From assembly GCA_903936705.1 (NCBI GenBank), contig CAIZWN010000035.1:62001-126000 (forward strand): a stretch of 64,000 nucleotides of DNA, read 5' to 3'. Numbering within the stretch: the first letter of the stretch is position 1; the number at the start of each line of letters is the position of its first letter. Origin of the DNA: an uncultured Myxococcales bacterium. Its GTDB lineage: Bacteria > Myxococcota_A > UBA9042 > DTJE01. A program made the translations under genes and the position numbers. Of this stretch, positions 6,986 to 56,212 are shown piece by piece. A model generated the notes under the pieces. That model was not told the DNA's origin. It was given only the letters and a program-made list of their open reading frames with translations, and searched no databases.

Positions 6986-8782
6986 ATGAAACTGACACAG
7001 TCGTCGTGCCTGGTCCTGTTGGTAGCTGCCCTGGCAGCCGGATGCGATGCGGCCAGTGACAACGCGGATCTGCCTGGGGGCAACTCGGATGTAGTTGATG
7101 CCGACGGTTTTCAATCTGACGGTGCGCCGGGCGACACGTCAAGGGATTCAACAGGCGACGAATTTGTGCCAGATTCGACCGACAACGGTTCATTCGACGT
7201 GCTCGGTGAACTGGATCCGACCGATAACGGTTCCACCGATGTCACCGGCGAACTGGTTTTGACCGATGACGGTTCTGACGTGGTGACGCAAAAACCGGCA
7301 TACATGTTGATCGTGACGCAGGACGACCTGGCGACAGTTGCAGGCGAGTGGGCCACGTATCGCCGGACGCGTGGTTTCGAGGTGGACGTCGTGACGGTCA
7401 CGGACCTGGCCGGTGACGCTGCCGACGCCGCCACCTTCAGGGACGCCGCACTGGCACGCCTTGGGGCCGAACGTACCTCCCGCGGTACGGATGCCCGACT
7501 GTTCCTGATGCTGCTGGGAGACGCCCCGGCCGACGGCGGGGCCGAGCAGGGGCGCATCCCGGCCCACGACTGCGAGAACACAACACCCGGGCAATCGGGT
7601 TGCTGGACCGACAACCGGTATGTGGATCTGGATGGGGATCGCATTCCCGAGATCGCCGCCGGACGAGTGCCGGCCCGCACCGAGGCCGAAGCCAGGACGG
7701 TGCTGGCCAAGGTGATGGATTTCGAGAGCAACTATCAGGTGGGAGAATGGAACCGTCGCGTCAGCCTGTACGTGGGCGAGGCCGGTTTTTCCCCCGAGAT
7801 CGACGGCCTCTTGCAAACGGCCATGATGGAGGGACTCAAGAGGGTCAACCACGCTTTCGACATCCTAGGCGCCTGGGACAATTCGGCAAGCAGTTACTGG
7901 TACGTTCCATTCAACGACAAGGTCGTGGATTTGTTCAACCAGGGCGCCCTGATGACCGTCTATGTGGGTCATGGGTCCGAGTCGTGGACACAGGGCCTGA
8001 CAACCGACCAGGTTTCGAAAATCAACTGTGACAAGCGTCGTCCCTTCTCGCTGTTCTTCGCGTGCTATGCCGGCAACTACGCATCGTCCAAGGACAGCCT
8101 TGCCGAGACGCTTGCGTTCAAGGCTGACGGCCCCGTAGCGTCCTTCGGGGCATCGGACGTGTCGCACCCGTTCGGCAACGCGGTGCTTGCGTACGAGAGC
8201 CAACTGAAGGCGCTGGAGATGCGCTACGAGACCATCGGGGAAGTCCTTGTGGCGCTGAAGCGAGGGCTGGTCGAGAACAACGACGAATTCCGGCAGTTCA
8301 TCGCCAGTGCCGGGGCAATGGACACGTCCTGCGACACCCCCGAGAAGCAGGAGGAGATCCTGCGGCAGCACAACGACATGTACAACCTGCTGGGCGACCC
8401 GGCGACGTCGATGCAGTACCCGCGCGAGATTGCCACCTTTGACGCCCCATCGGGTACGCTGGCGTCCAAGAGCCTGAACGTGTCGGGGACGGCTCCAGGC
8501 ATCGGATCGGGGACGGCAATCGTCAGTCTGGAAACCGAGCGGGACGTGATCCTTGGCGCGCTGAAGCCAGTGAACCCCGACAATCCGGTGTCTGCGGACG
8601 TCAATGCCAACTGGGTAGTCTCGAATGACAAGACGATCGCGCACGCAGAAGTTGCCGTCACAAACGGTCGCTTCCAGGCGACGCTTGGCTGGACGGCCGA
8701 CGTGGCAGGCGGCGACTACTATCTGAAGATCTACGCCCAGGATGGCACCTCGGACGCAATCGGGGTCGCCGATTTCCACTAG
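6986..8782 (+). CDS. Peptidase C25 (gingipain-like) family lipoprotein
   Basis: 598 residues. A signal peptide with lipobox LAAGC predicts a lipid-anchored envelope protein. An Asp/Ser/Thr-rich linker (about 21-103) contains three copies of a 14-residue repeat (TDNGSxDVxGEL). A C25 caspase-fold domain follows (about 104-480), with the presumed catalytic His in YVGHGSE and Cys in FFACYAGNY, the order seen in gingipains. The C-terminal 110 residues look like a beta-sandwich with repeated Val/Thr strands. GGAG precedes the ATG by five bases. It appears monocistronic. Likely role: extracellular or surface proteolysis, or processing of exported proteins. Family assignment rests on the two catalytic motifs and overall pattern. 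Confidence 0.8.
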   Translation: MKLTQSSCLVLLVAALAAGCDAASDNADLPGGNSDVVDADGFQSDGAPGDTSRDSTGDEFVPDSTDNGSFDVLGELDPTDNGSTDVTGELVLTDDGSDVVTQKPAYMLIVTQDDLATVAGEWATYRRTRGFEVDVVTVTDLAGDAADAATFRDAALARLGAERTSRGTDARLFLMLLGDAPADGGAEQGRIPAHDCENTTPGQSGCWTDNRYVDLDGDRIPEIAAGRVPARTEAEARTVLAKVMDFESNYQVGEWNRRVSLYVGEAGFSPEIDGLLQTAMMEGLKRVNHAFDILGAWDNSASSYWYVPFNDKVVDLFNQGALMTVYVGHGSESWTQGLTTDQVSKINCDKRRPFSLFFACYAGNYASSKDSLAETLAFKADGPVASFGASDVSHPFGNAVLAYESQLKALEMRYETIGEVLVALKRGLVENNDEFRQFIASAGAMDTSCDTPEKQEEILRQHNDMYNLLGDPATSMQYPREIATFDAPSGTLASKSLNVSGTAPGIGSGTAIVSLETERDVILGALKPVNPDNPVSADVNANWVVSNDKTIAHAEVAVTNGRFQATLGWTADVAGGDYYLKIYAQDGTSDAIGVADFH

Positions 8783-11183: not shown

Positions 11184-13106
11184 ATGGCTGACAACGTGAG
11201 AGACACCAGTCGAGCGCCGGTGAGCCAGGCCGGCCACTTCATTGCCCCCGTCGAGGACGACACCCTGATCGGTGGGCGCGTCACTCTGACCATCGACGGC
11301 CAGGAAGTGAAGGTACCACTGGGCACCACCATCCTTGATGCCGCCAAGAAGGTCGGGATCAGGATCCCTACACTATGCGCCCACCCCGACCTGTGCTCGG
11401 CCGGCCTGTGCCGCGTGTGCGTGGTCGAGGTTGAGGGCATGCGGACCCTGCAGGCGTCCTGCGCCTACCCGGTTTCGCAGCCGATGAAGATCCACACGCA
11501 CACCCGCAAGGTGCGCCAGGCTCGCCGCCACATCGTGGATCTGATGCTGTCGCAGCACTACGGCGAATGCTATGCATGCGTCCGTAACAACAACTGCGAA
11601 TTGCAGTCCCTGGCCAAGGAGTACGGCGTCGATTTCTTCCGCTTCGGCCATCCCGACAAGCCGATGTGCGAGAAGGACGAGTCCAGCCACTCGGTCATCC
11701 GGGACATGAACAAGTGCGTAATGTGCCGCCGCTGCGTCCGGACCTGCATCGACCTGCAGGAAGTCGGCGCCCTCGAGGCCGTGGGCCGTGGCGACAAGAC
11801 AAAGATCTCCACGTTCATGGACAAGCCGCTGGCCGATGTCGTTTGCATCAACTGCGGACAGTGCATCAATCGCTGTCCGACGGGCGCCCTGCGCGCCAAC
11901 GACCCGACCGACGAAGTCTGGGCCGCCATTGATGACCCGACCAAGCATGTGGTAATCCAGACTGCTCCGGCGCCTCGCGCTGCAATCGGCGAGTGCTTCG
12001 GACAGGAACCAGGACACGCCCTGACGTTCGAAATGAACACCGCCCTGAAGCTTTGCGGATTTGACAAGGTGTTCGACACGAACTTCACGGCCGACCTGAC
12101 CATTTTCGAGGAAGGCGCGGAACTGCTGCTGCGGCTGCAGGACGCCCTGAAGACGAAGAAGGGCCCGGTCGCCTTGCCGCAGTTCACTTCGTGCAGCCCG
12201 GGTTGGGTGAAGTACCTCGAGCACTTCTACCCCGAGTACATCCCGAACCTGTCGTCGGCCAAGTCGCCGCAGCAGATGTTCGGCGCCATCATCAAGACCT
12301 ATTACGCGCAGCTGAATAAGATCGACCCGAAGGACATCGTCACCGTCGCGCTGATGCCATGTTCGGCAAAGAAGTTCGAGTGCAACCGGCCAGAAATGAC
12401 CGACTCGGGCTTCAAGGACGTGGACTACGGCCTGACGACCCGCGAGCTGGCCAAGATGATCCACGAAGCCGGGATCGACCTGCCCAAGATGGCCAAGTCC
12501 GACTTCGACGATCCGTTCGGCACGGCGACCGGCTCGGGCGTCATCTTCGGAACGACCGGCGGCGTCATGGAAGCGGCGCTGCGCACCGTCATCGAGCTTG
12601 TCGTGGGCATCAAGGTCGAGAACCTGTTCGAACACGCCGACATCATTCCGTTGCGCGGCATGGACGGCGTCAAGTACGTCGAACTGAAGATCCCCAGCGT
12701 CGGTGAAGTACCTGCCATCCTGAAGCCCCTGTTCGAGTCCTGGGACTTCCTGAACGGCGTTACCGTCAAGGTGGCTGTGGCCCACGGCACGGCGAACGCC
12801 AAGAAGGTCATGGAGGACATCAAGAACGGCGGCCCGTTGGCCGGATGCCACTTCATCGAGTTCATGGGCTGTCCTGGAGGATGCATCGGCGGCGGCGGCC
12901 AGCCGATCCCCACATCGCAGACCATCCGCGAAGCTCGCTCCAAGGCGATCTATGACGAAGATTCGGCGTACGCGGTCCGCAAGTCGCACGAGAATCCTGC
13001 CGTCCTGAAGATCTACACGGAGTGGCTGACTGAGGGTCCGTGCAGCCACAAGAGCCACGAACTCCTGCACACGCACTACACCCCTCGCGGCAAGTTCATA
13101 GCATAG
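11184..13106 (+). CDS. [FeFe]-hydrogenase catalytic subunit (HydA/HndD type, group A)
   Basis: 640 residues catalysing H2 oxidation/proton reduction. Domains: plant-type [2Fe-2S] ferredoxin (Cys 65, 76, 79, 93); His-Cys3 [4Fe-4S] site (His125, Cys129, 132, 138); two [4Fe-4S] clusters (Cys 178/181/184/188 and 221/224/227/231); the H-cluster domain; and the C-terminal small-subunit domain (about 575-635, ending HTHYTPRGKF). H-cluster loops: L1 TSCSPGW (335-341), L2 MPCSAKKFE (391-399), L3 EFMGCPGGCIGGGGQ (559-573). L1 has Ser where the usual TSCCPxW has its second Cys. Start ATG 11184 lies 59 bases after the NuoF-like gene. No HydE/F/G maturases are in the window. No signal peptide, so cytoplasmic. 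Confidence 0.95.
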   Translation: MADNVRDTSRAPVSQAGHFIAPVEDDTLIGGRVTLTIDGQEVKVPLGTTILDAAKKVGIRIPTLCAHPDLCSAGLCRVCVVEVEGMRTLQASCAYPVSQPMKIHTHTRKVRQARRHIVDLMLSQHYGECYACVRNNNCELQSLAKEYGVDFFRFGHPDKPMCEKDESSHSVIRDMNKCVMCRRCVRTCIDLQEVGALEAVGRGDKTKISTFMDKPLADVVCINCGQCINRCPTGALRANDPTDEVWAAIDDPTKHVVIQTAPAPRAAIGECFGQEPGHALTFEMNTALKLCGFDKVFDTNFTADLTIFEEGAELLLRLQDALKTKKGPVALPQFTSCSPGWVKYLEHFYPEYIPNLSSAKSPQQMFGAIIKTYYAQLNKIDPKDIVTVALMPCSAKKFECNRPEMTDSGFKDVDYGLTTRELAKMIHEAGIDLPKMAKSDFDDPFGTATGSGVIFGTTGGVMEAALRTVIELVVGIKVENLFEHADIIPLRGMDGVKYVELKIPSVGEVPAILKPLFESWDFLNGVTVKVAVAHGTANAKKVMEDIKNGGPLAGCHFIEFMGCPGGCIGGGGQPIPTSQTIREARSKAIYDEDSAYAVRKSHENPAVLKIYTEWLTEGPCSHKSHELLHTHYTPRGKFIA

Positions 13107-45283: not shown

Positions 45284-46246
45284 CTACAAATCGAAGTCGG
45301 TGCCGAAGCCTCCGGCGACGAATGGCTCGTACTTGCGGTTGCGGTCCTCCAGTATGACACCAGCCATCACGTAGATACGCAGGCGATCCAGCGGACCCCA
45401 TGGGTCTTTGGGCTGCCACAAAAACAGGCCGCCCACCCGCTGGCGCCGCAGATCGGTCACCGCCGTGTAGGTGACGTCGTACAGGGCGCCAATCATCAGC
45501 GTGGCGTCCCGCTTGGCCTTCCAGACCTGGGCCAGCACCCACAGTTGGTTGTAGATAAGAAGCTCCGTCGGAGCCATGACGGTGTCGTTTTCGTACTCGT
45601 AGAAGTACGCGCCCCGGCCAACGAACCGGTACATCGCGATGTTGCACTGGTTACGGAAGATGAACCAGCCCTGCTGCAGTGCCAGCGTGGGTTGCAGCAT
45701 CACGCGGTAGGCAAAGCCGGTTCGGTCATGACCTGGCAAACTGCTGGCATTACGGTCCACATCGGACTTCTCGGGAAACGAGTCAAACTGGCGCAGGGCA
45801 CCAAGCACGCCAAAATAACCAAACAACGCGGTATCAAAGCGCAACGTAAGGAAGGCCGCTGGCGCCCACTCCATGTGCACCGAGACCTGGGCGTAGGCCG
45901 GGTTCAGCAATATCCCAAGGCCGGCCTGCAGGTAGGCCCACTCGATGTTTCGCTTCTGATCCACCTCGTAGACGTTGCGCAGCACCAGGCTGCCCAGCAC
46001 CTGTATTCCCAGGGGGTTGTACGCGCCCTGCACGTCCACCGCGGCAAGCCGGCGCAGCCCGAGGTGCGGTCCTGGCCAACGCGGGCTGCCGGTCGTGGCT
46101 GCGGCCGGGGCGGCTGCCTGATCGGGAACCTGGGTGGATGCCGCGGGCGATGCCGGAGGCGGTGCAGGTTCAGCGGCCCTTAAGACCCACGGAACAGCCA
46201 GCATTGTCAGGAGGACCAGGGTAGAAAACCACGTCTGCCGGTTCAT
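45284..46246 (-). CDS. Exported envelope protein, probably beta-barrel
   Basis: 320 residues from ATG 46246 (GGAGG six bases upstream). A signal peptide (1-27) and a Pro/Ala-rich linker are followed by alternating aromatic-hydrophobic strands (for example VSVHMEWAPAAFLTLRFDTALFGYFG and YNQLWVLAQVWKAKRDATLMIGALYDV) that suggest an outer-membrane beta-barrel, ending FGTDFDL with no classical final Phe. No domain recognised. It lies 31 bases after the FadL-like gene and is likely cotranscribed with it; perhaps an outer-membrane partner. Confidence 0.6.
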   Translation of the reverse strand: MNRQTWFSTLVLLTMLAVPWVLRAAEPAPPPASPAASTQVPDQAAAPAAATTGSPRWPGPHLGLRRLAAVDVQGAYNPLGIQVLGSLVLRNVYEVDQKRNIEWAYLQAGLGILLNPAYAQVSVHMEWAPAAFLTLRFDTALFGYFGVLGALRQFDSFPEKSDVDRNASSLPGHDRTGFAYRVMLQPTLALQQGWFIFRNQCNIAMYRFVGRGAYFYEYENDTVMAPTELLIYNQLWVLAQVWKAKRDATLMIGALYDVTYTAVTDLRRQRVGGLFLWQPKDPWGPLDRLRIYVMAGVILEDRNRKYEPFVAGGFGTDFDL

Positions 46247-46277
46247 TGAAACCTCCAAGCTGCCCCTCGAGACATCG

Positions 46278-47537
46278 TCACAATGCAGTCGCCGCAGCGG
46301 CCGGCACCACCTTGTCGCCGAATCGGAAAGTCAACGTCAGGGCAAGAAAATGCCCGATCGTCGAATAGGTACCCTCCGGCCCCAGCCGACCGGTCTTGGC
46401 TTCGTGCGGCAGGAACGCGATGAACTGGTATCCGAGATCGGCCTTCAACCACTTCCACGAATAACCCAGGCCCAGGCACACGTCGATCTGATCGGCATCC
46501 GGCGTCGATGGTTCCAGGTAGGAATCAGGTACGGGAGTCTTGTCATATATCAGGCCTGCGCGAACAGCCAGGCCCTTGACAGGCGTCTCCCAGTCGACGC
46601 CAACGCGCAGCACCAGGGAATCCGCAAACCCATGCTCCATCACGATGTCGGAACCGCCGTCGCGCTTCAGCGTCGTCTTGTAGTAGGTGCTCCAGACGAC
46701 CACATTCGCGTCTAGTCCAACTTCCACCGAGGGCACCGGACGAAAGTTCACGCCCAGCGCGAAGATGTCAGGCAGGACGAATTCCGTGTTGACCTTGCCG
46801 TCGATCAGATCGCGCCTGAAGTCGGGGCGCGGGTCGAAGTCGATCCGCCCCGACATCGGAAGGTGCAGGCGGCTGCGATACGTAAGACCAACAGACAGCC
46901 GGTCAGGAATCGGATGCCACTGAACGCCCACATTCGCGCCATAGCCCCAGCCGGCCGCACCGAATCGCACCTCGCCTCCGACAGGTTCGGGAAGGCCTTG
47001 CAAGGCGTCGATGGAACCGCGGACGGCGTCGAACCCGATGCCGATCGCCACGCTCTTGTGCGGCTTGAACGTGATTGTCGGGTTCAGCGACACCGTGCTC
47101 ATCGAGGAACTGATGGTATAGGCGCGCCCGATCCAGTCGTTGGGCCACGAATTGCCCAGCCCGAACACCGAGTACGCTCCGAAGCCGGCGTACAGCCAAT
47201 CCGTGATGCGAGCCGAGGCAAACAGGTGGGGAAGGAAGTAGTCGCCCGGCACGTTCTTGGCCTGGCCTCCGCCCTTGAGATCGAGCGTGGTGCCTGCCCT
47301 GGTGTACACCGTACCCAGCGCCACCTGGTATGGCGCCCCGAAGGCCAGACCAGCGGGGTTGTACCAGATCGCGTCAGGTCCATTCGTGCTGCCGACGACT
47401 GCCGAGCCCTTGCCCACAGCCTCGCCGGACACGTCGTAGACAAGGAACCCGCCGGCCAGCGCCGCGAAAGGCGTCGCCAGAACCACCGCCGCCACGAGGG
47501 CGGCCGGAAGCGATCGAAGAGTACTCGTCGCGCCCAT
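46278..47537 (-). CDS. FadL/OmpP1/TodX-type outer-membrane transport protein
   Basis: 419 residues from ATG 47537 (GGAGG seven bases upstream). A signal peptide ending AALAGGF is followed by the FadL plug motif with WYNPAGLAFG, then beta strands (GLTYRSRLHLPMSG, YKTTLKRDGG) and a C-terminal strand LALTLTFRFGD. FadL channels move long-chain fatty acids or other hydrophobic compounds across the outer membrane. Here it sits directly downstream of the VolA-like lipoprotein and ceramidase genes, which makes lipid uptake likely. Confidence 0.9.
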   Translation of the reverse strand: MGATSTLRSLPAALVAAVVLATPFAALAGGFLVYDVSGEAVGKGSAVVGSTNGPDAIWYNPAGLAFGAPYQVALGTVYTRAGTTLDLKGGGQAKNVPGDYFLPHLFASARITDWLYAGFGAYSVFGLGNSWPNDWIGRAYTISSSMSTVSLNPTITFKPHKSVAIGIGFDAVRGSIDALQGLPEPVGGEVRFGAAGWGYGANVGVQWHPIPDRLSVGLTYRSRLHLPMSGRIDFDPRPDFRRDLIDGKVNTEFVLPDIFALGVNFRPVPSVEVGLDANVVVWSTYYKTTLKRDGGSDIVMEHGFADSLVLRVGVDWETPVKGLAVRAGLIYDKTPVPDSYLEPSTPDADQIDVCLGLGYSWKWLKADLGYQFIAFLPHEAKTGRLGPEGTYSTIGHFLALTLTFRFGDKVVPAAAATAL

Positions 47538-47547
47538 GCTGCACCTC

Positions 47548-48906
47548 CTATGGATTCGGGAAGTCGAAGGCATACACGTACACCAGGTCCGCCCGGTTCA
47601 GGCCGGTCAGGCCGGCAAACAACTCGTCATCCAGCAGTTTCGCAAAGTCGGCGCGCCCTGCCTCCAGTTCCGTCGCATCTGCATCGGGCACGTCTGCAAC
47701 CTGGGACTTGCCCGCGTCATCGACCAGCGGGCCGCGCGCCTTCAGCAGAACGGTAACTGGCGACGGCACCAGGGCAACGCCCTTGGAGTTGGTCACTCCA
47801 GTGGTCACCAGCGTGGCGATCGTGTGGCCGACCGGAAGGTCCACGTCGGCACGCAGCACGATTGCGCCATCCTCGTATGCAGCCGTGAAGGCCGGAAGCC
47901 CGCCCGAAAGGTCGTTCGCTTCCAGGGCGGTCAGGTCCAGAAGGAACACGCTGCCCGGGGCGTCCAGCGACCACGCGGTGACCGTTGCCGGGTTGACCGA
48001 ACCCTTCACCTTCAGACGGATTTCGTTCTTGCCCGAAACCGATGGCAGCAAACCCTTGGTCGGATCCAGCTCGACCACCGATGCGGAGTGGACCGGGAAG
48101 GCCCAAAGGACCGCCTGTTCCTCTCTCGGGATGCCTCCCGTTTCGGCCATCGCCGCGACCGCTCCCTGCGTCGCAATGCTTTGCCGCGCAGCCTCAAGGG
48201 CAATCAGTGAGTCGCGCGCCTCCACGTCCGACATCTGCTGGGCCAACAGCACGTAATAGGGGCAGGAAGCTGGAATCGTCGAGGCTGTCAACCCGCCGCA
48301 CGTCAGGATTTCCTTTTCCTTCAGCAGGTACATTACCGACGAGCCTACGACCTCGGTTCCGCCAATTGCCTTGACGCCGTTCGCATACCCGCGGACCGCC
48401 CCGACGTAAATCGTACCCACGTCCCAGCCCGACTTCGGGTCGATCGTGACGTTGTTGCCTACCGTGGTGAATCCAATAGCCAGATCCGTGAACGTCTTCC
48501 CGCTTCCGATGTCCACAATGACAACATTCGTCGCCGTCAGTGAGGCTGGGTCCAGCGCGGCGGTCACCGGCGCTGTCGCACCCGCCGTCGATGGGAATCC
48601 GTCCAGCGACTGGAGGTACTGGTAGAATTCGCACTGCGCAACAGCCATCAGGGTCTGCGCGATGCAGTCGGCAGGCACCACGACTCCAGCAAGCGACATG
48701 TCGATCTTCCCGGTGGTCGGGTTCATCACAAGTGTCGTCGGCTGGGGCACCTGGCCCGTAGTCGGATCGAACACCATTGCCTCGGGAACCGGGTCCGTCC
48801 CGATGTCAGGCATGCATGCTGCCAAAGTCAGGCCGGCAATCAGCAGGGCCAGCACCTTCAGGCGGTGACCGCGTCCCTGGTGCCACGATGCGCAGTGTCC
48901 GTCCAT
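47548..48906 (-). CDS. VolA/Pla-1-cef N-domain-like lipoprotein without lipase domain
   Basis: 452 residues from ATG 48906 (GAGG seven bases upstream), with lipobox LAAC at the end of a 31-residue signal peptide. The N-terminal part resembles the bacterial Ig-like N-domain of VolA/Pla-1-type lipoproteins: FDPTTGQVPQPTTLVMNPTTG, then LQSLDGFPSTA and LTATNVVIVDI. Further Ig-like/SbsA-type domains follow (SGKNEIRLKVKGSVNP, YEDGAIVLRADVDLP). No GxSxG lipase motif is seen, so the enzyme half known from VolA is absent. VolA of Vibrio is encoded beside a FadL gene, a context matched here. It may bind lipid or organise the FadL complex at the surface. Assignment is from pattern only. Confidence 0.65.
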   Translation of the reverse strand: MDGHCASWHQGRGHRLKVLALLIAGLTLAACMPDIGTDPVPEAMVFDPTTGQVPQPTTLVMNPTTGKIDMSLAGVVVPADCIAQTLMAVAQCEFYQYLQSLDGFPSTAGATAPVTAALDPASLTATNVVIVDIGSGKTFTDLAIGFTTVGNNVTIDPKSGWDVGTIYVGAVRGYANGVKAIGGTEVVGSSVMYLLKEKEILTCGGLTASTIPASCPYYVLLAQQMSDVEARDSLIALEAARQSIATQGAVAAMAETGGIPREEQAVLWAFPVHSASVVELDPTKGLLPSVSGKNEIRLKVKGSVNPATVTAWSLDAPGSVFLLDLTALEANDLSGGLPAFTAAYEDGAIVLRADVDLPVGHTIATLVTTGVTNSKGVALVPSPVTVLLKARGPLVDDAGKSQVADVPDADATELEAGRADFAKLLDDELFAGLTGLNRADLVYVYAFDFPNP

Positions 48907-48959
48907 GAGACAACCTCGCCGCAGGAGTGTTTCGACCTTCCCCATGAACCACGGGCACC

Positions 48960-51107
48960 CTAGAGTACCTCGAATTCGCCCGACACACCCTGATAAGGAG
49001 TGAGCGTTCCACCGACCGATTTCGAGGAACCAAAATGCTTCAGCCGGTAGGTTCCAGGCGTCGCATCGGCCGGCACATCCCACAGTATCGAGGCCTGCGA
49101 GCAATGGCCGTCGGGACACTCGATAACCGCCCACTTCATCTTTGTTTCGAATGCGCCGTCGTCGGCTACCCGGGTCCACGAGTCTCCGGTCTTGATCTCG
49201 ACGGCCAGGTACGTGTCCTGGATGCGGAAGTCGTTTGCCGGATGGGCCGCCCAGAATACAGCCGTTGCCACCGTGCCACGAGCAACCGTGACGGGCACTT
49301 CCTGGGCCACGTCCCCGAAGGCAATACCTGATGGGACCGAGTCGAACGCACTGATGGGGCCCATCGGGACCACCTTGTCGGCCATCTCGCGGGGCGCGAT
49401 GCCCGGATCGGCAACCTGCCCATCACGGACAGCCACGGCCAACCCGTCCAGGATCTGGGTGGTGGCGGCGAGTTGCCATGGGCCGAACACGGTGGATGCT
49501 CCCTCGTAGTCCTGGACCGCGTACTCCTCGCGCGTGGCCAGGTACCCGCAGTAGTAGTTGGAGTAGCCAGCGACCAGCACGCGGTCCACGCCTGCCGGTT
49601 GCAAGGTAGCCCCGATAGTCCTGCGCAGACGCAGGCCCGACACGGTAGTCACCTCGAACGGAGCCGTTGCCATGGCCAGGTTGCCGATTCTGATGATCTG
49701 GAATGGCAGGATGTCGGGACCCAAAGGAGGATTGGAGTCACCGATCGGCACCATGATTGGCTTCTCGGCCTGGCAGTCGGTACACAGGTCGCCGCCCGTA
49801 GTCTCGCACGTCTGGTTCGGCTCGCCCGAGCCCGGCCAGTCCAGCCGGCCGCCGGCCAGCATCGAAAGGCCTGTGGCGGCCGGACAGGTGGTGTGCTGAA
49901 GGCCGTCTGCGTACTCGGGCCTCACCGTGAAGGCACTCATGTTCACGAATCGCTTGACCGCAGCCACGCCACCGGTCAGCGGCGCGGTGGTACCGTCGAA
50001 CAGGCTGCGAGCGCTTGCATACTCCTTGTTGGCCGAAACCTTCATGTCCTGGAAGTCCCGCTCGCCGTCCTTTTCTTCGAACGAGAAGCCGTTGACGTTC
50101 GGGCTGGAGTCGCCGGCAGTGGTATTGAAGAAGCCGGCCACGAAGGTAGTCGTCGCGCCGTAGTCGGCGCCCTGCGCCTTCTCGAACAGATAGGCGGCGT
50201 AGCCCTTGTTGTCGGGGGTGATCAGTTTGTTGATCGCTCCAACCGTGGTCACGTGAACGCCGAAAAAGTCTATGGCCGCGACAGGGGTCCCGTCGGTCTC
50301 CTCCAGGCGCAGTAGGGTATCAGTGGTGTCGATCAGGTTCGGGAAGGGCGTGCGATCAACTGCCGGATTCTGGGCGAAAGAATCGGGAGAACGGTTCCTG
50401 CCGGTGTCCATCAGGTCGGCGGAGGCAATCCGGACGTGGCCGGGGCGCAGGCTCTCGTGGGCCCGCCCGATTGCCTGGACTATGCCATCCACCACGGTCT
50501 CCCAGTTCTCCTGGTTGAAGCCGCCGACTGGAGCGAACTGGTAGAGGTTGTAGTAGGACAGGCCGCCCGGGCCGCTGTGCGTGTGCGTGGCTGACAGCAT
50601 CACGTTGTCGGCGTTGTAGACGCCCGGGTACTTCGCCTCCAGCCGGCGGATTACCTCGTCATGAACCGCGCCGAACATGCCCTGGATGTCTGCCACGACC
50701 AACGCCACGCGATTGCCGTTGCATGGACTGGCGACGACAAATGCACGGGCGCGCAACCGCATATGGATACCCGCCGAATACTGGTCCATGACCACGTAGC
50801 CCATCATGCCCATGCCCGCCACCGGACCGGTTACGTCGTAGACGCCGGCGCCAACCTCGAAGTCGGTGTTGCCAAGGCACTTGTCCTTGGGGGTGTCAAC
50901 TTCCGGCTCGACGTCCAAGCCGATCACTGTCTCAGTATCTTCTTGAAGGTCCGCTGGAATTTCCGACTGGACGTCGGATGGCGCGTCCACTGGCACATCG
51001 GCAGTTACTTCGTCAAAAGCTTGATCGATCGCTTCCGAACCCGAACTGCACCCTGCCATCAAGACAGCAAACCAGATGGCAATCATCGTCGCTTCCAGCC
51101 GCCGCAT
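48960..51107 (-). CDS. Neutral ceramidase family lipoprotein
   Basis: 715 residues from ATG 51107 (GGAGG five bases upstream). Lipobox LMAGC; an Asp/Glu-rich linker (21-75) as in other lipoproteins here. The neutral/alkaline ceramidase domain follows: VGAGVYDVTGP, GMMGYVVMDQYSAGIHMRLRARAFV, the zinc ligands HTH (175, 177) in ATHTHSGPGG, a further His in FFGVHVTTVG (285), and the nucleophilic Ser (335) in AGDSSPN. The C-terminal Ig-like domain has AHPANDF and RLKHFG. It hydrolyses ceramide to a sphingoid base and a fatty acid; its lipoprotein form places it at the cell surface or in the periplasm. It is followed by the VolA-like and FadL genes. Confidence 0.92.
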   Translation of the reverse strand: MRRLEATMIAIWFAVLMAGCSSGSEAIDQAFDEVTADVPVDAPSDVQSEIPADLQEDTETVIGLDVEPEVDTPKDKCLGNTDFEVGAGVYDVTGPVAGMGMMGYVVMDQYSAGIHMRLRARAFVVASPCNGNRVALVVADIQGMFGAVHDEVIRRLEAKYPGVYNADNVMLSATHTHSGPGGLSYYNLYQFAPVGGFNQENWETVVDGIVQAIGRAHESLRPGHVRIASADLMDTGRNRSPDSFAQNPAVDRTPFPNLIDTTDTLLRLEETDGTPVAAIDFFGVHVTTVGAINKLITPDNKGYAAYLFEKAQGADYGATTTFVAGFFNTTAGDSSPNVNGFSFEEKDGERDFQDMKVSANKEYASARSLFDGTTAPLTGGVAAVKRFVNMSAFTVRPEYADGLQHTTCPAATGLSMLAGGRLDWPGSGEPNQTCETTGGDLCTDCQAEKPIMVPIGDSNPPLGPDILPFQIIRIGNLAMATAPFEVTTVSGLRLRRTIGATLQPAGVDRVLVAGYSNYYCGYLATREEYAVQDYEGASTVFGPWQLAATTQILDGLAVAVRDGQVADPGIAPREMADKVVPMGPISAFDSVPSGIAFGDVAQEVPVTVARGTVATAVFWAAHPANDFRIQDTYLAVEIKTGDSWTRVADDGAFETKMKWAVIECPDGHCSQASILWDVPADATPGTYRLKHFGSSKSVGGTLTPYQGVSGEFEVL

Positions 51108-51187
51108 CCCGACCTCCGTAGGCCGCCAAGGCCCGATCACATGATGGAATCACATCCCCGCGCAGTATTGCAGGACGCGATCACGAC

Positions 51188-51832
51188 CTACCCGGCCTTG
51201 ACCGCCTTCCCGGCCGGCCGCTGGGCCACGAGCCCGTAGGCCAGCAACGCATACAGGTCCTCGCCGATCTGTTCCTTGTCCACCGGTATCAGCATCCTGC
51301 GGTGGCGACGCAGCAGACCGTCCAGCAGACCAAGAATGCCCGACGCCACAACCTCCGGATCACACGGAAGCAGGTATCCCTGATCCTGCCCCTGGCGAAT
51401 CATGCCGGAAACGAAATCGACATAGAGATCTCGCGCAGCCTCCACCCGCTCGACAACATCCTCGTCAAACCCATAGCCGCCGGGATTTCGCGCAACAACG
51501 AACAGATCGGACCAGGATAACAACAGGTCGACCTGGACCATTACCAGTCTGCGAAAATGTTCGGGGAAGGGAAGATCTGACACCATGTCGCGATTCAGCG
51601 CCTCGATGAAACGATTCATCCCCTCGCAAACCAGGGCCACAAACAGGTCCGACTTGGATGGAAAATTATAGTACAGCGTACCCTTGGCAACACCGGCCAG
51701 GCTTGCGATGTCGTCCATTCTGGTCTCGTGAAAACCGCGTTTCGAGAAGGCTCCCAGCGCGGCATCCAGAATTTTCTGACGACTGCGGGACCGGGGTGGC
51801 GCCCCGGTGGGTGTGACACGGAATGCCGACAT
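51188..51832 (-). CDS. TetR-family transcriptional regulator
   Basis: 214 residues. The N-terminal HTH (about 18-65) has the family pattern ILDAALGAFSKRGFHETRMDDIA, GVAKGTLYYNFPSKSDLF. The C-terminal ligand/dimer domain is variable. Its ATG follows the FGGY kinase stop directly (TGAATG), with GGAGG nearby, so it is the fifth gene of the aldolase-to-regulator operon. It probably represses this operon; the 18-bp palindrome at 56213-56230 is a candidate operator. Confidence 0.92.
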   Translation of the reverse strand: MSAFRVTPTGAPPRSRSRQKILDAALGAFSKRGFHETRMDDIASLAGVAKGTLYYNFPSKSDLFVALVCEGMNRFIEALNRDMVSDLPFPEHFRRLVMVQVDLLLSWSDLFVVARNPGGYGFDEDVVERVEAARDLYVDFVSGMIRQGQDQGYLLPCDPEVVASGILGLLDGLLRRHRRMLIPVDKEQIGEDLYALLAYGLVAQRPAGKAVKAG

Positions 51833-53413
51833 TCAGACATCCTCCTGCATCAACCGCCTGTTGATGCGACGGGTAGCCTTGTGCAGCGTCGCAAATGCCT
51901 CGAACTGTCTGTCGTACATCTCGCCGAACTCGGGCCGCGGCTGGACCGACTGGCCCTCCGGAATCAGGCCGTCGGCATCCTCGAACCTGGCCAGGGCGCC
52001 CAGGCCAACACCGCAAACGATAGCGGCGCCCAGCGCACCCGCATCAACCGGCCTGGCCAGGGGGCGCACCGCACGTCCCGTAATATCCGCCAGAATCTGG
52101 GCCCATACCTTCGATCGAGCTCCGCCGCCCACGAAACGGATCGTGTTCTGTCGAGGTACCCTGTGTTCCACCGCCTCGAGCATCCATCTGGTGTGGAAGG
52201 CCACGCCCTCCATGACAGCTCGAACCAATTGCGGCGCATCCGTCTCAAGTCCAACGCCCACGAACATGCCTCGGGCGGCAGGGTCCTCGCTGGGCGCCCT
52301 GATGCCATGCAGCCACGGGGCATACAACACCCCACCGGCGCCTGGAGCAGTCTTTTCGGCCGCCTCGTCCATGACGGCATAGGTCACCGCGTCAGCAGCC
52401 GCCTGCGTACCCGGAACCGACCGCAGAACCTTGTCCCGCATCCACTGAAGGCAGTATCCGGCAGTCTCCATCTCGGCGATGTAGTTGTACCGGCCAGGTA
52501 TTGCGCCAAGGATCGACGCCACAAAGCGGCCGGGATCCACCATGCGCTTCTCGACGCTGGCAATGACCCACCCCGAGGTGCCGTAGTACACGTGAATGTC
52601 GTTCTTCTTTACACAACCTGCGCCAACCGGGATCAACGAGGCGTCCCCGCCACCGCCGAAGACCTTTACGCCCTGCGGCAGCCCGGTCGCGGCAGCGGCC
52701 TCGGCGGTCAGTTCGCCAACAATATCGGTGGACCTGACCACCGGCGGAAGATGCGCCATGTCCACCCTGTAGGTCTTGCACAGGCCCTCGTGCCACACCA
52801 GTCGCCCCGGACGCGTGTCGAACAGGAACGTCGCATGCGCCGAATCCAGCGTCATCGCGACCTTCCCGGTCGCTCGCAGAACCAGATAATCCTTTACGTC
52901 CAACCATTTGTAGGTGCGCGCGAACAGGTCGGGCTGGTGGTCCCGAACCCAGTGGTACTTCCAGACGGGGTCTTTTGGCGATGTGGACAAGCCGCCTGTC
53001 ACCATCAGCGTACGCAGCGCCTTGATCGCGTTGAATCCCTGGAACTTCACAAGCCCGTCGCACAGCCCCTTCCGGAGCTGTTCGGTCGAACGTCCGTCCA
53101 TGTAGATCATCGCGTTGCGCAACGGACGTCCGTCGCGATCGATGTGAATCGAACCCTGCATCTGGCAGCAGAACGCCAGCCCCCTGACCTGAGGCGCCAG
53201 CCCCGGATCCTCGTCCATGATGCTGCGGATCGAGGTCGTCACTGCAGACCACCAGTCATCCGGGACCTGTTCGACCCCCCCGTCATGCGTGGTGAGCAGT
53301 GGATAGGTGGCATAACGGGAAGCGACGATCTCCAGGGTAGGTCCGATGCGCACCAGGCAGGTCTTGGTGCCCGTGGTGCCAACGTCGCAGGTGATTACGA
53401 GAACTGGTTGCAC
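51833..53413 (-). CDS. FGGY-family carbohydrate kinase (xylulokinase-like)
   Basis: About 526 residues. The N-lobe starts VLVITCDVGTTGTKTCLV (ATP phosphate loop of the actin/hexokinase fold), with GLAFCCQMQGSIHID and DGRSTEQL as the sugar side, and the C-lobe has GGGGDASLIPVG, YYGTSGWV and VGGGARSKVWAQILADITGR. It phosphorylates a ketose or polyol; the exact sugar cannot be read from sequence. GTG at 53413 is favoured because a GGGGGG run lies seven bases upstream; GTG at 53419 is two codons longer. It would supply the phosphorylated substrate for a class II aldolase in the same operon. Confidence 0.88.
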   Translation of the reverse strand: MQPVLVITCDVGTTGTKTCLVRIGPTLEIVASRYATYPLLTTHDGGVEQVPDDWWSAVTTSIRSIMDEDPGLAPQVRGLAFCCQMQGSIHIDRDGRPLRNAMIYMDGRSTEQLRKGLCDGLVKFQGFNAIKALRTLMVTGGLSTSPKDPVWKYHWVRDHQPDLFARTYKWLDVKDYLVLRATGKVAMTLDSAHATFLFDTRPGRLVWHEGLCKTYRVDMAHLPPVVRSTDIVGELTAEAAAATGLPQGVKVFGGGGDASLIPVGAGCVKKNDIHVYYGTSGWVIASVEKRMVDPGRFVASILGAIPGRYNYIAEMETAGYCLQWMRDKVLRSVPGTQAAADAVTYAVMDEAAEKTAPGAGGVLYAPWLHGIRAPSEDPAARGMFVGVGLETDAPQLVRAVMEGVAFHTRWMLEAVEHRVPRQNTIRFVGGGARSKVWAQILADITGRAVRPLARPVDAGALGAAIVCGVGLGALARFEDADGLIPEGQSVQPRPEFGEMYDRQFEAFATLHKATRRINRRLMQEDV

Positions 53414-53526
53414 CAGCACGCCCCCCCTTGGTCAACCCGCAACCGGAAGCGCCTTGCCCGGATCCAGGAGCGTGGGAGGTAGCGAAGTCCCCCACCGTTT
53501 GGAGGGCGTCCTTCAGGCTCCCAACC

Positions 53527-55465: not shown

Positions 55466-56158
55466 CTAGCCCTGCGCCTCCCTTGCCTTGCGCTTCCGAC
55501 GCACCTCGGTTCGCTGTTCGCTCTTCAGCATGTCGAAAACCGCCACTTCCACGTCCTCGGGAAGCGTTGCGGCGGCCTTGCCCGTTGCCAGCACCATTTG
55601 GTAGGCATGGGCCGTCTTCTCTAGCAGTTCGGCGTTGCGCAGCGCCCGTTCCATATCGATCCCCAGCAGCAGCGCGCCGTGGTTTTGCAGGACAAAGGCG
55701 TTGCACTTGTTGCTGACCGCTGCCGCGATGTTCGCCATCAGATCGTGGCTGCCGGAAAGGCCATAAGGAACAACAGCTACCGTGTTGCCGATGTTTGCAA
55801 CCTGTTCGTCAGTCAGGGCCGGGATCGGCAGGCCAAGGATCGCAAACACACTGGCATGCACCTGGTGCGTATGAACGATTGCGTTGACGTCGGGTCGAGC
55901 CTGGTAGATCGACGTATGCATACGGGTTTCAACCGATGGACTTGATGTACCCTCGATCTGCGTTCCGTCAAAGGCAACAACGCATATGTCGTCGGCAGTA
56001 AGCTCAAGATAGTCGCGCTGCGAAGGGGTTATCGCAAGAAAGTCGTCGTCCCCAATCCTGACGGACACATTGCCGCCGGTACCGACCAGAAGACCACGCC
56101 TGAACAAGGCCAAAGCTGCTTCCAGTACCTTGTTCCTGGCGCTACCGCTATCAACCAT
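55466..56158 (-). CDS. Class II aldolase/adducin-family protein
   Basis: 230 residues. The fuculose-1-phosphate aldolase fold is complete: GNVSVRIGDDDFLAITPS, then the zinc ligands His96 and His98 in IVHTHQVHASVF and His160 in QNHGALL, with the catalytic Glu77 in SVETRMH. GLLVGTGGN is the phosphate-binding loop, and the C-terminal tail is Lys/Arg-rich. ATG 56158 has GGAG eleven bases upstream; longer readings cover the promoter region. It is the first gene of the operon with aminotransferase, SCP2, FGGY kinase and TetR genes. The substrate is likely a phosphorylated ketose. Confidence 0.9.
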   Translation of the reverse strand: MVDSGSARNKVLEAALALFRRGLLVGTGGNVSVRIGDDDFLAITPSQRDYLELTADDICVVAFDGTQIEGTSSPSVETRMHTSIYQARPDVNAIVHTHQVHASVFAILGLPIPALTDEQVANIGNTVAVVPYGLSGSHDLMANIAAAVSNKCNAFVLQNHGALLLGIDMERALRNAELLEKTAHAYQMVLATGKAAATLPEDVEVAVFDMLKSEQRTEVRRKRKAREAQG

Positions 56159-56212
56159 GCTTTTGACTGCTCCGAAAGCTGGACCATCGGTAGTGTCCTG
56201 CGATCCCAACTG

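Follow-up and report, generated by a model that had tools for sequence, protein, structure and literature searches.

A conserved nine-gene locus in an uncultured Myxococcales bacterium with a probable role in sphingolipid scavenging and catabolism

Results

The window analyzed here is a 64,000-nucleotide stretch (G000:C35:62001-126000) from the genome of an uncultured Myxococcales bacterium, a 4.85 Mb assembly in 84 contigs. Positions 45284-51107 of the window hold four minus-strand genes that in transcription order encode a ceramidase-family lipoprotein (CER), a lipoprotein related to the N-terminal part of VolA-like lipases (LIPO), a FadL-type channel (FadL) and a predicted outer-membrane barrel (OMP4), separated by 53 base pairs (bp; CER/LIPO), 10 bp (LIPO/FadL) and 31 bp (FadL/OMP4). 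The third-position GC of all four is high (0.77-0.78), and because this matches the expectation for the source genome we read them as real genes. The original prediction for this region described a three-gene unit of ceramidase, VolA-like lipoprotein and FadL on one strand with gaps of 10 to 53 bp. Its strand and spacing were correct, but its gene count was not, as the region contains four genes.

Comparison with the two other genomes of the same genus (sister genomes G001 and G002) showed that these genes belong to a conserved block of nine co-directional genes (Table 1), whose order from ALD to OMP4 was retained in all three genomes. The CER-LIPO-FadL core of the original prediction was thus kept in both sisters, so that the lack of a conserved gene order, which would have counted against that prediction, was not observed. 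OMP4 and the five conserved genes upstream had been missed. Identity to the sisters was 79-80% for ALD, 86% for AMT, 73-74% for SCP2, 87-88% for FGGY and 65-68% for TetR in the upstream half, and 61% for CER, 70-72% for LIPO, 71-74% for FadL and 62-63% for OMP4 in the downstream half. In the window, the block is flanked by a MurB gene above it and by GT87, radical SAM and SLT genes below it. None of these was near the block in either sister, and because the flanking genes differ we take ALD and OMP4 to be its sharp boundaries. A single sister genome has a GMC oxidoreductase gene and a multihaem cytochrome c gene directly upstream of the block (L038:2167-4514); this pair was considered as SphBC-like and rejected, since neither the window nor the other sister shares it.

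Table 1. Genes of the conserved block in transcription order, with positions in the window.
Gene	Predicted product	Coordinates	Strand	Evidence and remarks
ALD	Class II aldolase, FucA-like; first gene of the block	55466..56164	-	PF00596, E 6.6e-49; start uncertain, open reading frame reaches 56257
AMT	Class III pyridoxal phosphate-dependent aminotransferase, GSAM-like, 480 residues	53960..55402	-	PF00202, E 4e-51
SCP2	SCP2-type lipid-binding protein, 135 residues	53527..53934	-	PF02036, E 4.9e-8
FGGY	FGGY-family carbohydrate kinase, xylulokinase-like	51833..53419	-	PF00370/PF02782
TetR	TetR regulator	51188..51832	-	PF00440, E 1.1e-17
CER	Neutral ceramidase lipoprotein	48960..51107	-	PF04734 + PF17048; alternative upstream GTG at 51140
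LIPO	Hydrolase-less VolA N-domain lipoprotein, 452 residues	47548..48906	-	Alignment to VolA-like relatives, AlphaFold model
FadL	FadL/TodX outer-membrane channel with YNPAGL motif	46278..47537	-	PF03349, E 1.3e-39
OMP4	12-stranded outer-membrane barrel, 320 residues; last gene of the block	45284..46246	-	AlphaFold model

Beyond the genus, the CER-LIPO-FadL order was not seen among about 270-280 sampled genomes. Ten other genomes of the family yielded weak PF04734 matches only and no full ceramidase, and the top ceramidase matches in the rest of the phylum (42-45% identity) had no FadL gene in the fetched flanks. We therefore regard the three-gene unit as genus-specific in this sample.

The ceramidase assignment made in the original prediction held up. 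CER matched both Pfam domains over their full length (PF04734, E 6.7e-141, 470.8 bits; PF17048, E 1.2e-39, 136.3 bits), and phmmer aligned 630 residues with the Pseudomonas aeruginosa ceramidase structure 2zws (4.4e-122). Identical in that alignment are ATHTHSGPGG (H97), VH (H204), APxE (E411), GY (Y448) and the SPN serine; we take the four numbered residues to be the zinc ligands, and the serine to be the nucleophile, in the structure of the P. aeruginosa enzyme. A lipobox (LMAGC) followed by an acidic linker can be read from the sequence. CER is, by these similarities, a member of the neutral ceramidase family for which ceramide hydrolysis is predicted. The source genome contains nine PF04734 matches, CER and eight others of varied strength, many of them weak, and to judge from these the ceramidase-like family is expanded in this lineage. 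The genus also shares a second ceramidase-family gene, the product of which lacks a signal peptide (L039:9853-11649 in G000:C28, L040 and L041), and near it in G002 an endoglycoceramidase-like gene of glycoside hydrolase family 5 (GH5) lies on the opposite strand.

LIPO has a lipobox (LAAC) in its sequence, and in profile searches it matched neither PF12262 nor any Pfam family of its own. Its relatives were found in 29 of 269 phylum genomes, most of them inside open reading frames of roughly 840-1200 residues, and LIPO aligns to the N-terminal ~450 residues of these proteins (best E 2.5e-22). Several of the relatives bear both an alpha/beta-hydrolase domain and PF12262 (the latter in 9/13 aligned homologues), which we take to be the bacterial lipase N-terminal domain, that is, the VolA N-domain. 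The LIPO alignment stops just short of the hydrolase, and the C-terminal alpha/beta-hydrolase with its GxSLG motif is missing in all three orthologues, which are 452-460 residues long and end at the same position. The AlphaFold model of LIPO (predicted local distance difference test score, pLDDT, 84) contains strand-rich elements and helical hairpins and no alpha/beta-hydrolase, and a fold search returned only weak, uninformative immunoglobulin-like matches (LdtMt, S-layer). These data agree with the earlier proposal of a VolA-like N-domain without a lipase, with the qualification that PF12262 itself was unmatched.

Three other identities for LIPO were considered and rejected. It is not a VolA-type or other lipase, as the alignment and the AlphaFold model lack a hydrolase domain and a GxSxG region. 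The similarity to ExbD/TolR was attributed to chance (a Pfam match, E 0.0028, below the cut-off and absent from the orthologues), and a truncated pseudogene is contradicted by the single C-terminal end shared by the three orthologues.

The likeness to the VolA-FadL pair that had been noted originally was borne out across the phylum: in 17 of 18 informative loci, a FadL gene follows the VolA-like gene at a distance of no more than about 250 bp (20 loci were fetched, two contigs end too soon, and the exception is one 18-kb locus without FadL). In addition, every FadL tested in the family of the window has a VolA-N-like gene upstream. One such pair is in the source genome itself (L155:10408-12228, G000:C44), where a 607-residue VolA-N-like protein with no Pfam hydrolase domain is encoded directly before a FadL gene whose clade occurs in several genera of the family. 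Because VolA-like genes directly precede FadL with this regularity, the most fitting reading of LIPO is that of a FadL partner without a hydrolase, and we infer that the VolA N-domain is the partner of FadL, with the hydrolase as an optional part.

The channel encoded after LIPO was FadL, as predicted, with a full-length PF03349 match (136.3 bits, cut-off 29.7); its 59.5 bits to the NCBIfam FadL equivalog did not reach the cut-off of 585. In the FadL tree it forms a clade of its own, sister to the family-wide FadL clade (support 95/96). The AlphaFold model of OMP4 (pLDDT 79) resembles 12-strand barrels with Z scores of 16-17, among them the COG4313 structure 4rl8 at Z 16.0, which tied with autotransporter and other barrels. 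Profile searches gave no sequence match between OMP4 and COG4313/SphA. Twelve is also the strand number of the COG4313 family, to which the sphingosine channel SphA belongs (PMC4493636). The modeled fold of OMP4 is compatible with SphA, although the match is not specific.

The upstream half of the block encodes enzymes of sugar-type families and a lipid-binding protein. ALD is similar to L-fuculose-1-phosphate aldolase (8.7e-32), with conservation of the aligned Glu and three His that we take to be the metal ligands of FucA. Against the fucA equivalog TIGR01086 it scored 120.8 bits, short of the cut-off of 400, so that by this test its substrate is not fuculose-1-phosphate. The FGGY kinase reached 309 bits with the XylB model, under the cut-off of 380, and likewise scored below the fuculokinase equivalog cut-off. 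AMT matched GSAM structures (1e-68) and the aminopentol aminotransferase 6hbs (8e-26). Class III transaminases that act on sphingoid-like aminopentols are known; they render an action of AMT on a sphingoid base plausible, without proving it. AMT was also considered as a FumI orthologue, and this was rejected as the similarity is at the superfamily level only. The best NCBIfam matches of the TetR regulator were FadR/FasR fatty-acid regulators, all under cut-off (NF053878, E 2.1e-17).

A tblastn search with AMT at 1e-60 among 72,556 plasmids identified two records, from Burkholderia ambifaria (61% identity) and Butyrivibrio fibrisolvens (56-57%), and a like search with FGGY returned those same two records and no other. 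Both records have the genes for AMT, FGGY and a class II aldolase side by side or almost so. Because two separate queries led to the same two plasmids with clustered genes, AMT, FGGY and ALD look like a travelling module. The Burkholderia cluster also contains TetR, short-chain dehydrogenase/reductase and aldehyde dehydrogenase genes, and close by is a PF06127 gene (E 2.8e-23) for an Mpo1-like 2-hydroxy-palmitate dioxygenase. In yeast, Mpo1 serves phytosphingosine catabolism. No Mpo1-like gene was found in the source genome. At 1e-90, the 269 phylum genomes gave no further AMT homologue, nor did phages at 1e-60, and viral contigs gave one remote match (28% identity).

Both sister genomes have an additional gene between FadL and OMP4, which encodes an 868-residue GH5 lipoprotein (87% identity between the sisters). 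Among solved structures this protein is closest to endoglycoceramidase II (EGCase II; 4.5e-15) and a fungal steryl glucosidase (4.5e-12), and its sequence contains the catalytic motifs NEP and GEFG; with the endoglycoceramidase equivalog NF051847 it scored 65 bits over 70 residues, and the cut-off of 700 was not reached. The source genome has GH5 paralogues elsewhere, with long matches that are 38-47% identical to the sister protein, and genomes of the genus each carry several endoglycoceramidase/steryl-glucosidase-like GH5 paralogues (L151 and L152; G000:C5, C15).

Outside the block, the source genome also encodes a sphingosine-1-phosphate (S1P) lyase (5e-111 to 3mad). This gene lies on one strand with genes for a lipoprotein, a penicillin-acylase-family protein, a 412-residue protein that is predicted to be secreted and has no Pfam match, and an AAT-family protein (L209:9962-18011, G000:C68), apparently a second sphingolipid/amide-lipid cluster. 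At a contig end (L197:4764-7856, G000:C51) a PilZ domain is fused to an alpha-oxoamine-synthase-type enzyme, whose nearest model was serine palmitoyltransferase (255 bits over a fragment, under cut-off); synthesis of the bacterium's own sphingolipids is thus possible. Elsewhere in the window, a [FeFe]-hydrogenase with NuoG-type iron-sulfur domains (11184-13106, plus strand) suggests an anaerobic lifestyle, and the lipoprotein encoded at 6986-8782 (plus strand) has a gingipain-type (peptidase C25) domain.

Discussion

Based on the observed gene families, their order and their linkage, the block is probably a locus for sphingolipid scavenging and catabolism, with its reactions predicted; the scavenging part is well supported by the sequence comparisons. 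Beyond what the original prediction drew on, the regular VolA-FadL pairing in the phylum, the GH5 gene in the sister units and the S1P lyase in the genome strengthen the case. Lipid-anchored CER, presumably exposed at the surface, would cleave ceramide outside the cell to release a fatty acid and a sphingoid base, and in the sister species the glycoceramidase-like GH5 lipoprotein would first take off the sugar head. LIPO may dock on or feed FadL in place of the VolA lipase, with a separate enzyme supplying the lipid, and FadL, perhaps together with the 12-strand barrel OMP4, would move the products over the outer membrane. Inside the cell, SCP2 would hold the lipid while the transaminase, the FGGY kinase and the class II aldolase, presumably in this order, would degrade the sphingoid base, and the FadR-like TetR regulator would control this degradation set.

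For the catabolic steps we speculate that AMT would replace the 2-amino group of phytosphingosine with a keto group to yield the “lipid ketose” 1,3,4-trihydroxy-octadecan-2-one, that the FGGY kinase would phosphorylate C1, and that ALD would then split the C3-C4 bond to release dihydroxyacetone phosphate (DHAP) and pentadecanal, with SCP2 carrying the intermediates. Phytosphingosine is proposed as the substrate because the retro-aldol step needs the C4 hydroxyl; sphingosine or sphinganine could pass through the S1P lyase. If true, the route should be specific for phytosphingosine from plants, fungi or algae. The route is speculative, and we put it forward as possible rather than probable. We hold equally tentatively the joint reading, in which a new sphingoid-base pathway with the logic of sugar catabolism is combined with a hydrolase-less VolA N-domain that serves as a general FadL adaptor for different surface hydrolases.

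Several observations weigh against a locus of this kind. The unit was seen in one genus only, in three genomes that are all fragmented assemblies, and there is no GH5 gene at the FadL/OMP4 junction of the window genome. The co-transcription that we assume has gene spacing as its basis, and a promoter/terminator scan of the locus gave nothing above chance. CER scored 459.9 bits against the 1200-bit cut-off of the NCBIfam neutral-ceramidase equivalog NF041649, so we call it a family member and not an equivalog. Lastly, neither plasmid has a ceramidase near its AMT module, and the upstream half could therefore serve another amino-polyol. ALD, AMT and FGGY might then be an ordinary sugar or amino-polyol pathway sharing the operon, with only CER, LIPO, FadL and OMP4 being lipid-related and the S1P lyase encoded elsewhere handling the sphingoid base. 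This is a serious possibility, if not one that we would expect to prevail, since FGGY kinases and class II aldolases are classic sugar enzymes. It fits poorly with the SCP2 gene sitting between AMT and FGGY, with the FadR-like regulator, with a block order that is fixed in 3/3 genomes although the flanks vary, and with the Mpo1-like 2-hydroxy-fatty-acid gene and aldehyde dehydrogenase near the Burkholderia module.

The nature of the lipid and the purpose of its uptake also have to be considered. The eight further PF04734 matches indicate that the family is broadly used in this genome, and together with the missed equivalog cut-off they would suit a CER with other N-acyl lipids as substrates, such as the amide-linked lipids of bacteria, in a unit that scavenges amide lipids generally. 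We consider this quite unlikely, given the full-length similarity of CER to the P. aeruginosa ceramidase with identical active-site positions, the endoglycoceramidase-family gene inside the block in the sisters and the S1P lyase in the genome. It is also unlikely that the unit serves the cell itself or its defense, through remodeling of its own sphingolipids or removal of toxic sphingosine, and not feeding: uptake and catabolism are the better match to a FadL-type importer together with a complete set for backbone degradation, and the sister GH5 lipoprotein suggests external glycolipids. The PilZ-fused serine-palmitoyltransferase-like protein does hint at own sphingolipid synthesis, and P. aeruginosa uses SphA/SphBC against sphingosine (PMC3900636, PMC11893366).

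Scavenging and catabolism of sphingolipids, if it is the function of the block, would point to a bacterial breakdown of sphingoid bases other than by S1P lyase or SphBCD, with a small gene set that is also present on Burkholderia and Butyrivibrio plasmids. Such breakdown matters for microbial ecology because sphingoid bases are antimicrobial and are abundant in plants, fungi, algae and hosts. The locus also suggests the VolA N-domain as a separable partner of FadL and not as part of a lipase, which offers a direct test of the role of this domain. Searches of the open-licence literature found no paper on a neutral ceramidase with FadL, on an endoglycoceramidase and ceramidase operon, on phytosphingosine with an aldolase, a kinase and an aminotransferase, or on FGGY, a class II aldolase and an aminotransferase with lipid; such a negative is a weak sign that the combination is new. 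Should assays bear it out, the catabolic half could prove to be a new pathway.

Among known systems, VolA of Vibrio cholerae is reportedly a surface lysophospholipase lipoprotein, composed of PF12262 and a hydrolase, that is paired with FadL. As in V. cholerae, the gene for a VolA-N-domain lipoprotein in the block adjoins FadL, and an external hydrolase would free lipid for uptake. Unlike VolA, LIPO has no lipase domain; hydrolysis would fall to a separate ceramidase (and GH5 protein in the sisters), and catabolic genes are included in the block. The clustering of an FGGY kinase with a class II aldolase, and the logic of cleaving a ketose-1-phosphate to DHAP and an aldehyde, recall L-fucose and L-rhamnose catabolism (FucK and FucA), whereas the aminotransferase in place of a sugar isomerase, the SCP2 gene in the operon and the scores below the fucA and fuculokinase cut-offs set the block apart. 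Like the route through sphingosine kinase and S1P lyase, the proposed pathway would lead from a sphingoid base to a fatty aldehyde; S1P lyase, however, is encoded elsewhere in this genome and would yield phosphoethanolamine, whereas the block route would yield DHAP.

The SphR regulon of P. aeruginosa (cerN, sphA and sphBCD) similarly unites a neutral ceramidase, an outer-membrane channel and metabolic genes for sphingosine (PMC3900636, PMC11893366). That regulon has a COG4313 porin as its channel, is divided between two loci and is under an AraC-type regulator (PMC3900636, PMC11893366), whereas the block has FadL with a VolA N-domain protein and a TetR regulator. The enzymes differ as well, with a cytochrome c, a periplasmic oxidase and a threonine-aldolase-like enzyme in P. 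aeruginosa (PMC3900636, PMC11893366) and a transaminase, an FGGY kinase and a class II aldolase here. The block would function much as the cerN/sphA/sphBCD regulon and VolA-FadL do, with a different combination of parts.

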